Origin: Candidatus Saccharimonadota bacterium
Lineage (GTDB): Bacteria > Patescibacteriota > Saccharimonadia > Saccharimonadales > UBA4665
Direction: 5' to 3'
DNA: 34,652 nucleotides
NCBI GenBank assembly: GCA_003133385.1
Contig: PKXF01000001.1
Span: 1-34,652 of the forward strand
The notes beneath the pieces were generated by a model. That model was not told the DNA's origin. It ran no database searches and was given only the letters and a program-made list of their open reading frames with translations. Of the stretch, positions 6,403 to 6,996 are shown one piece after another. A program made the translations under genes and the position numbers. The number at the start of each line of letters is the position of its first letter. Position 1 is the stretch's first letter.

Positions 6403-6435
6403 AAAAAAGCCCCGGGCCGTAGCGCGGGGTTTTTT
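6403..6435 (-). terminator. Intrinsic terminator in the dapA leader (attenuator)
   Basis: On the minus strand CCCCG/CGGGG (6425-6429 with 6410-6414) forms a GC stem with a 10-nt loop and runs into six U residues; the flanking A6/T6 can extend it. It lies 30 bp upstream of the dapA start and downstream of the leader ORF, so read-through is needed to express dapA from the leader promoter. Its loop and top base pair belong to the competing 10-bp pairing (6416-6425 with 6455-6464). Confidence 0.8.
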
Positions 6436-6464
6436 GTTTGGCAGGTCAAGGAAAGCGCTACGGC
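6416..6464 (-). promoter_or_regulatory. Candidate antiterminator pairing overlapping the leader stop codon
   Basis: GCCGTAGCGC at 6416-6425 is a perfect 10-bp inverted match to GCGCTACGGC at 6455-6464, 29 nt apart. One arm contains the stop codon of the 18-codon leader ORF. The other occupies the terminator loop and one base of its stem. The two folds are therefore expected to exclude each other: a ribosome reaching the stop codon would cover the first arm and allow termination, while a ribosome held further upstream would leave it free. The pairing is seen; the regulatory logic is inferred. Confidence 0.55.
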
Positions 6465-6514
6465 AACAGCTTCTGGCGCTTCTTTACTTCTTCTGGAATT
6501 ACTAATTTGAACAT
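6458..6514 (-). CDS. Putative leader peptide, 18 aa, upstream of dapA
   Basis: The ORF reads MFKLVIPEEVKKRQKLLP then TAG. It carries four lysine codons, including tandem AAG at codons 11-12, placed before the terminator that precedes a lysine-pathway gene. An extended -10 box (TGATATGAT) ends seven bases before the ATG, so the message would be nearly leaderless. Classical amino-acid attenuators share this design: regulatory codons, stop codon inside an RNA arm, then alternative hairpins. Lysine sensing is inference; Glu-Glu-Val-Lys-Lys or another cue is possible, as is a small functional protein. Confidence 0.5.
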   Translation of the reverse strand: MFKLVIPEEVKKRQKLLP

Positions 6515-6521
6515 GGTATGT

Positions 6522-6530
6522 ATCATATCA
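6522..6530 (-). promoter_or_regulatory. Extended -10 promoter of the dapA leader
   Basis: The minus strand reads TGA-TATGAT, an extended -10 element, with the leader ATG (6514) seven bases downstream of its end. The usual start distance puts the first transcribed base at or next to the A of ATG. The -35 region is weak, which is tolerated by extended -10 promoters. Confidence 0.5.
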
Positions 6531-6587: not shown

Positions 6588-6996
6588 TGGTGGAGCTGCC
6601 GGAGATTGCATCCGGGTCCGTCGGTTTAACATGGTTAGTCTTCTACAGGCATAGTTTGTTTTAGGATCTTAGGCAGTGGGTATCAAAACAAACAAACATT
6701 CCACTGCAGCAGTCCAAAGTCTTAGCAAGTAGCTAGGACATTTCTACTTGAGCGTCCAGAATATATGACGCGCTTTCGCACTATCTGGCGTCGTGTTCAG
6801 CGCGGCTTTAGTGATTAAGCTAAAGCTGGTGCGGGCTGTAGTGTAAATAGCGCAGCGAGGTTTTGGGCCCCGTTACGTACAAATGCTACAGCTTCGCTAA
6901 TTTTAGAAGTTGCATCTAAAAAATTTGCCTATACGCTGACAAGCGACCTGCTGATCTAACCGATAAAGTCCAACGTCGAGCTTAACATTCAGCCCC
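6588..6996 (-). ncRNA. ssrA: Transfer-messenger RNA (tmRNA, SsrA)
   Basis: The 409-nt RNA rescues stalled ribosomes by adding a degradation tag. The 5' end GGGGCTG pairs with CAGCTCC before the discriminator A and an encoded CCA, forming the tRNA-like acceptor. The 3' part contains the T-arm (GGACCCGGATGCAATCTCCGG). A tag frame ends in GCT TTA GCT TAA, and the stop lies in the loop of a perfect hairpin (GCTTTAG/CTAAAGC, 6805-6826), as in helix 5 of known tmRNAs. The frame is open back to GCA at 6926-6928, giving up to 37 codons ending QPAPALA. GCA at 6911-6913, 84 nt from the 5' end, is a likelier resume point and gives 32 codons starting ATSKISEA. The resume codon is not certain. Confidence 0.93.

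Follow-up and report, generated by a model that had tools for sequence, protein, structure and literature searches.

The window, meaning the whole stretch of 34,652 nt analysed here, comes from a tiny bacterium of a candidate phylum (Saccharibacteria). It carries on its minus strand a gene, dapA, for 4-hydroxy-tetrahydrodipicolinate synthase, an enzyme that presumably takes the first dedicated step on the way to lysine, and this gene is preceded by a leader of about 110 nt that contains a short ORF, an inverted repeat and an intrinsic terminator. The DapA protein scores 231.2 bits against TIGR00674, above the cut-off of 206.15, and matches by sequence the DHDPS of solved PDB structures. The upstream neighbour of the leader is a tmRNA gene, which the preliminary description of this DNA had overlooked together with its terminator; because this gene has a terminator of its own, the leader forms a separate transcription unit. 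The elements of the leader, all on the minus strand, and the genes around it are as follows (G000 denotes the genome of the window).

6588-6996, minus strand: tmRNA gene with its own terminator
6550-6545, minus strand: TAGAGA, a poor -35 element
6530-6522, minus strand: extended -10 element TGaTATGAT (pattern scan: 9 of 12, with TG before the second hexamer)
6514-6458, minus strand: near-leaderless leader ORF MFKLVIPEEVKKRQKLLP, 18 codons and TAG, with its ATG at 6514-6512, 7 nt downstream of the -10 hexamer
6484-6479, minus strand: tandem lysine codons AAG AAG (codons 11-12), the proposed control codons
6482-6476, minus strand: region 1, GAAGCGC, which in folding pairs with GCGCUUU at 6458-6452 to form the putative protector helix 1:2
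6464-6455, minus strand: region 2, GCCGTAGCGC, the 5′ arm of the antiterminator, including the TAG stop at 6460-6458
6435-6403, minus strand: intrinsic terminator (regions 3:4), AAAAAACCCCG..CGGGGCTTTTTT, of the form A6-CCCCG...CGGGG-C-T6
6425-6416, minus strand: region 3, GCGCTACGGC, the 3′ arm of the antiterminator, corresponding to the terminator loop and the edge of its 5′ stem
6384-6380, minus strand: Shine-Dalgarno sequence AGGAG of dapA, from the sequence
6373-5402, minus strand: dapA, the proposed controlled gene, starting 29 nt past the last T of the terminator run

To the base, these elements agree with the preliminary description, which had reported a promoter, an 18-codon ORF with four lysine codons including a tandem pair, a stop codon in one arm of a 10-bp inverted repeat, and an intrinsic terminator with the other arm as its loop, about 30 bp before dapA. 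Lysine occupies codons 3, 11, 12 and 15 of the ORF, an enrichment that is modest when the window peptide is taken alone (4/17, P = 0.0115). The sequences GCCGTAGCGC and GCGCTACGGC are perfect 10-bp complements, and the 2:3 antiterminator uses the 5′ arm and the loop of the terminator (dG of -10.6 for the GC stem and -15.6 including the A/U extension), so that the two structures are mutually exclusive. A third helix also folds, in which GAAGCGC, covering the second lysine codon and the following arginine codon, pairs with GCGCUUU at the 3′ side of region 2. Because of this third helix, the leader has a predicted three-hairpin layout of the trp type (1:2 protector, 2:3 antiterminator and 3:4 terminator); the classical architecture claimed earlier does match the trp type, but the protector had been missed. 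Folding of the full leader gives z = -2.36, with 5 of 200 shuffles equally stable. Another inverted repeat, UUGACCUG / CAGGUUAA (6449-6442 and 6396-6389), flanks the terminator, ends shortly before the Shine-Dalgarno sequence of dapA and is absent from the relative G318 described below.

Because none of the other 92 genomes in the window's family has dapA, conservation was tested in other families. The dapA of the window's subfamily is rare in class-wide and order-wide samples, and a single-protein DapA query of the genome contigs gave no match. An alignment-based DapA search returned 80 loci, of which one only belongs to a Saccharibacterium, G318 (RIFCSPHIGHO2_12_FULL_41_12), and the others have no terminator-bearing leader, bar one unrelated weak hairpin. 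The region upstream of dapA was readable in G318, G233, G130 and the more divergent G458, and is cut at a contig end in G588. DapA of G000 is 43-50% identical to that of G318, G130 and G233 (46% for G318), and the best family of G458 DapA is TIGR00674 at 181 bits, below the cut-off of 206. A homologous leader precedes dapA in three of these four readable relatives, G318, G233 and G458, which belong to families f13 and f2 as against f1 for the window. The dapA gene of G130 follows an RNase J-like gene at a distance of 69 nt and has no leader, and the DapA proteins of G190, G379, G428, G432, G438 and G590 fall into different subfamilies, which lack such leaders. The three homologous leaders read as follows.

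G318: TTGACA-17-TAAAAT, 9 nt, ORF MNIFHNYTGNKKVIKLKP with its stop, then GCCGTAGTGC and CCCCGCGCTACGGCTCGGGGCTTTTTT
G233: ORF MSFVIVTKKQIGIPNARR with its stop, terminator ACTCCCTCGGCAGGGAGTTTTTT, region 2 AGGCGGTGAT
G458: TGgTATGAT, 6 nt, ORF MVQRMNREKKPTTPPRAER with its stop, terminator ACTCCCCGGCGCGGGAGTTTTTT

In all four leaders a terminator follows a near-leaderless ORF of 18-19 codons that includes a tandem Lys-Lys and has its stop codon within the antiterminator arm; the preliminary description had looked to relatives for conservation of the ORF and the pairing, and both are kept in three dapA leaders from two other families. The leaders of G000 and G318 have in common their ORF length, K11, K12, K15, P18, a TAG within the arm and the core of the terminator, and CCCCGCGCTACGG is found once in each of these genomes, each time before dapA. 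Across the leader peptides, only lysine, length and stop position are conserved, and protector helices are predicted also in G233 and G458. In the 10-bp pairing, for which compensatory changes had likewise been sought earlier, the sole antiterminator change between G000 and G318 (GCCGTAGTGC) is a C to U that keeps the pairing as G-U. Because a MAFFT alignment of the leaders was uninformative outside the terminator, each sequence was folded separately and covariation was not counted.

The effect of ribosome position was modelled by a partition function that gives the probability of the terminator stem, P(terminator), with the RNA masked up to a ribosome whose A site holds a given codon. With the first lysine codon of the pair in the A site, P(terminator) is predicted to be 0.007, 0.005, 0.000 and 0.000 in G000, G318, G233 and G458, respectively, and with the ribosome at the stop codon 0.999, 0.999, 0.979 and 0.979; the earlier suggestion that ribosome position decides between antiterminator and terminator is thus predicted by the model in all four leaders. 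Dinucleotide shuffles of the sequence upstream of the terminator match this switching pattern in 28, 0, 21 and 68 of 1000 cases in the same order of genomes, in four tests that are not fully independent because the leader sequences are related. The first lysine codon gives a result that is stable for footprints of 9-14 nt, and codon 12 of the window leader, the second lysine, gives antitermination only at a footprint of 9-11 nt. When the codons giving P(terminator) below 0.1 are taken as the antitermination interval of a leader, lysine is the sole amino acid present in this interval in all four leaders, and the interval of G318 consists of codons 10-13 only, including the lysine pair. With no ribosome, the equilibrium P(terminator) is 0.98 in G233, 0.97 in G458, 0.66 in G318 and 0.26 in the window leader, which when naked folds mostly into the antiterminator at equilibrium.

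The whole G000 genome (1.09 Mb) was also scanned for terminators before genes that are preceded by short near-leaderless ORFs; a corresponding scan of G233 covers about 460 kb. Besides that of dapA, four leaders lie in G000 before biosynthetic genes, and their codons correspond to leucine (leuA), arginine (an argH operon), proline (proB-proS) and tyrosine, tryptophan and phenylalanine (DAHP synthase).

G000:C2:1036-1222 (L011): leuA leader MVSLVKYQLDLLLLGLSGLCFTMVEA, with a Leu run, a near-leaderless ORF, an 11-bp antiterminator and a terminator
G000:C14:118240-118404 (L064): arginine leader MNNQTSIIIVRRSSRISGSCPS with a terminator, before an operon of the argH-argF-argJ-argB-argC type (argF-type assigned by eye)
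G000:C8 54690-54555, minus strand: proline leader MSKKLRFASVLPLPPTRA with a terminator, before a glutamate-5-kinase-like (proB-like) gene, which scores below the proB cut-off, and then proS
G000:C10 24430-24299, minus strand (L051): Tyr-Trp-Phe leader MLIASTYWFTETPYGGLLDV with a terminator, before DAHP synthase, a gene that in this assembly appears to be broken into two frames

Of the 120 possible pairings of the peptides with the pathways, the correct one ranks first, and the -10 geometry of the window leader is repeated in these four leaders as well as in G318, G233 and G458. In the arginine leader, P(terminator) is predicted to be 0.14 with Arg11 in the A site and 0.86 at the stop. Equilibrium folding gives no switching for the leuA, aro and proB leaders, which are therefore assigned on codon content, and for leuA also on the complementary arms. 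A leader with leucine codons precedes leuA in all eight relatives that have this gene among 393 genomes of the class (L281-L288), and its core, GGGCTGTGCTTCA..GGTTGAAGCC, recurs with small changes in each of them. Because of these leaders, peptide-leader attenuators are likely to be at home in these bacteria, independently of the evidence from dapA. Near-leaderless starts are also ordinary in the lineage, since among promoter-like sites that lie no more than 100 nt from an ATG gene, 42 of 147 in G000 and 40 of 159 in G318 end 5-9 nt before the ATG.

Some further loci came to attention in the scans. A leader-like Val-rich ORF, MCKRSLVVEVFVIPT, and a terminator precede a 90-aa ORF near a contig end at G000:C5:16005-16135 (L014), and on the minus strand of G318:C9 at about 132634 (L238) the ORF VKTFATTANLILLGRLTDGLSV and a 9-bp arm complementary to a terminator lie before a short ORF. 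Upstream of 23564 on the minus strand of G000:C2 (L025), a strong terminator-like hairpin stands 6 nt before metK with a competing 9-bp pairing upstream, and is possibly a further RNA switch. On the minus strand of G000:C14, upstream of 8986 (L023), an ABC transporter ATPase gene follows a highly stable terminator (dG -21), and the complement of the 5′ arm of this terminator is found again as a 10-nt stretch upstream.

The dapA leader is very probably a ribosome-mediated transcription attenuator that reads lysine supply in the form of charged tRNA-Lys, and because its arrangement is kept in three other lineages it probably switches dapA on when lysine is short. Beyond the observed anatomy, its conservation and the position dependence of the predicted switch, we infer that transcription would terminate in the cell, that ribosomes would stall and that lysine would be the signal. 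RNA polymerase would start at or just before the leader AUG, and a ribosome would load onto the nearly leaderless transcript. When Lys-tRNA is plentiful, the ribosome would reach the stop codon in region 2 and cover this region, so that the 3:4 terminator forms and transcription ends before dapA; when Lys-tRNA is scarce, the ribosome would wait at the tandem lysine codons and cover region 1, so that region 2 pairs with region 3 and dapA is transcribed. If the leader is not translated, the 1:2 protector hairpin would allow the terminator to form. Folding predicts such termination clearly in G233 and G458 and more weakly in G318, and in the window leader the order of co-transcriptional folding would have to favour 1:2.

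The connection of DapA with lysine has gaps, because DapB (TIGR00036) was not found in G000, G318, G233 or G130, and neither LysA nor DapF was found by a motif scan of G000 and G318, a crude scan that is not proof of absence. Aspartate kinase and Asd were found in G000 only. The missing steps may be carried out by unrecognised enzymes, or DapA may serve another purpose; the leader argues for a lysine link of this orphan DapA, and lysine dependence would be a functional hint for an enzyme without findable pathway partners.

An attenuator of this build could instead sense translation in general, responding to slow ribosomes, an antibiotic or any starvation, with the lysine codons incidental. In line with this possibility, the antitermination intervals hold other residues (V, I and E in the window leader; R, M, N, E, P and T in G458), and the downstream lysine pathway was not identified. 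However, the tandem lysine is present in four of four leaders as the only residue common to these intervals, and the four sister leaders in G000 carry codons matching their own pathways, which makes a general sensor unlikely. It is more improbable still that the leader, from its own promoter to its own terminator, is an independent unit for an sRNA or a small functional peptide, and that dapA is expressed from a separate downstream promoter with no switching. Although a terminator normally ends a unit, and an RNA of about 110 nt would result, the peptide is not conserved except in lysine, length and stop position, the mutually exclusive folds are kept despite sequence change, and the stretch of only about 30 nt from the terminator to the dapA ATG contains a Shine-Dalgarno sequence but no promoter recognisable by pattern scan.

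A ligand- or protein-binding RNA using the same terminator, such as a lysine riboswitch or a T-box, is a very improbable explanation, although RNAs of this kind are generally known to regulate lysine genes elsewhere (for the L-box see also PMC1262725): the only Rfam matches in the window at gathering level are the tmRNA and one tRNA, no Rfam riboswitch or T-box appears in the leader even at E up to 10, and the leader of about 110 nt is largely occupied by the ORF. That the ORF, the inverted repeat and the terminator came together by chance is scarcely credible. Among 2000 dinucleotide shuffles of the leader, 16 do reach a perfect 10-bp repeat, and unusual features were what the window was read for, but three other lineages share the arrangement, each with predicted switching, which refutes chance unless the homologous leaders are assembly artefacts.

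Lysine genes are controlled by riboswitches, T-boxes and repressors. In the open (non-subscription) literature searched, neither a lysine leader-peptide attenuator nor amino acid attenuation in CPR bacteria was found, in keeping with the earlier statement that none was known. The dapA leader would fill this gap in the list of amino acids. Saccharibacteria, which belong to the CPR (Patescibacteria), are likely to control the small number of amino acid genes that they have (Lys, Leu, Arg, Pro and aromatic) by a suite of attenuators with near-leaderless ORFs, of which the lysine specificity is probably undescribed, and the orphan DapA is probably lysine-related. If this is true, host-dependent, gene-poor bacteria would be able to sense amino acid supply without a regulator.

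Among known systems, the L-box lysine riboswitch governs the lysine genes of many bacteria and often acts by terminating transcription, and for B. subtilis lysC a lysine-rich leader was reportedly once proposed before the riboswitch was recognised. The L-box aptamer is absent from the window leader according to Rfam, and the signal here would be tRNA charging and not binding of lysine to RNA. Like the trp, his and leu attenuators of Proteobacteria, the window leader has a promoter, a short ORF with proposed control codons, a stop codon lying within region 2, a U-tract terminator and predicted, mutually exclusive 1:2, 2:3 and 3:4 helices; it differs from them in its lysine codons, its dapA gene, its near-leaderless ORF and its occurrence in Saccharibacteria. 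Against Rfam Leu_leader (RF00512) it scores 23.5 bits, far below the gathering score of 50.

The near-leaderless start, previously put forward as a novelty, is the norm in G000 and is known from trpL/rnTrpL of S. meliloti, where a leaderless leader ORF lies at the 5′ end of an RNA with an attenuator terminator (PMC7298713, PMC10117765); the two systems are alike in these respects, and trpL has Trp codons and belongs to an alphaproteobacterium. In Actinobacteria the LEU element, a leader ORF with a Leu run, precedes leuA (PMC1262725); the leuA leaders of Saccharibacteria resemble it in layout, a likeness that does not imply homology, and may be related to it. The study of the LEU element also sought conserved regulation by RNA in the lysine and arginine operons of Actinobacteria and reported none (PMC1262725). 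In Salmonella, orf34 of speF senses arginine supply by two consecutive codons for basic residues, and replacement by Lys abolished arginine control; unlike a simple intrinsic attenuator, this system responds to arginine and acts through RNA decay or translation and possibly Rho termination (PMC6386406). The nearest hint in the literature is the SEP5 sORF of S. meliloti, which has six Thr and three Lys codons and lies before an aspartate dehydrogenase gene (PMC10117765). By its description in that source, SEP5 is like the window leader a suggested leader peptide with lysine codons in aspartate-family metabolism, but it has a mixed Thr/Lys cluster and belongs to another phylum; the comparison covers the peptide, its codons and the adjoining gene. 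Set beside these systems, the dapA leader is best read as a known mechanism, the attenuator, with an amino acid and in a phylum that are new to the open literature searched.
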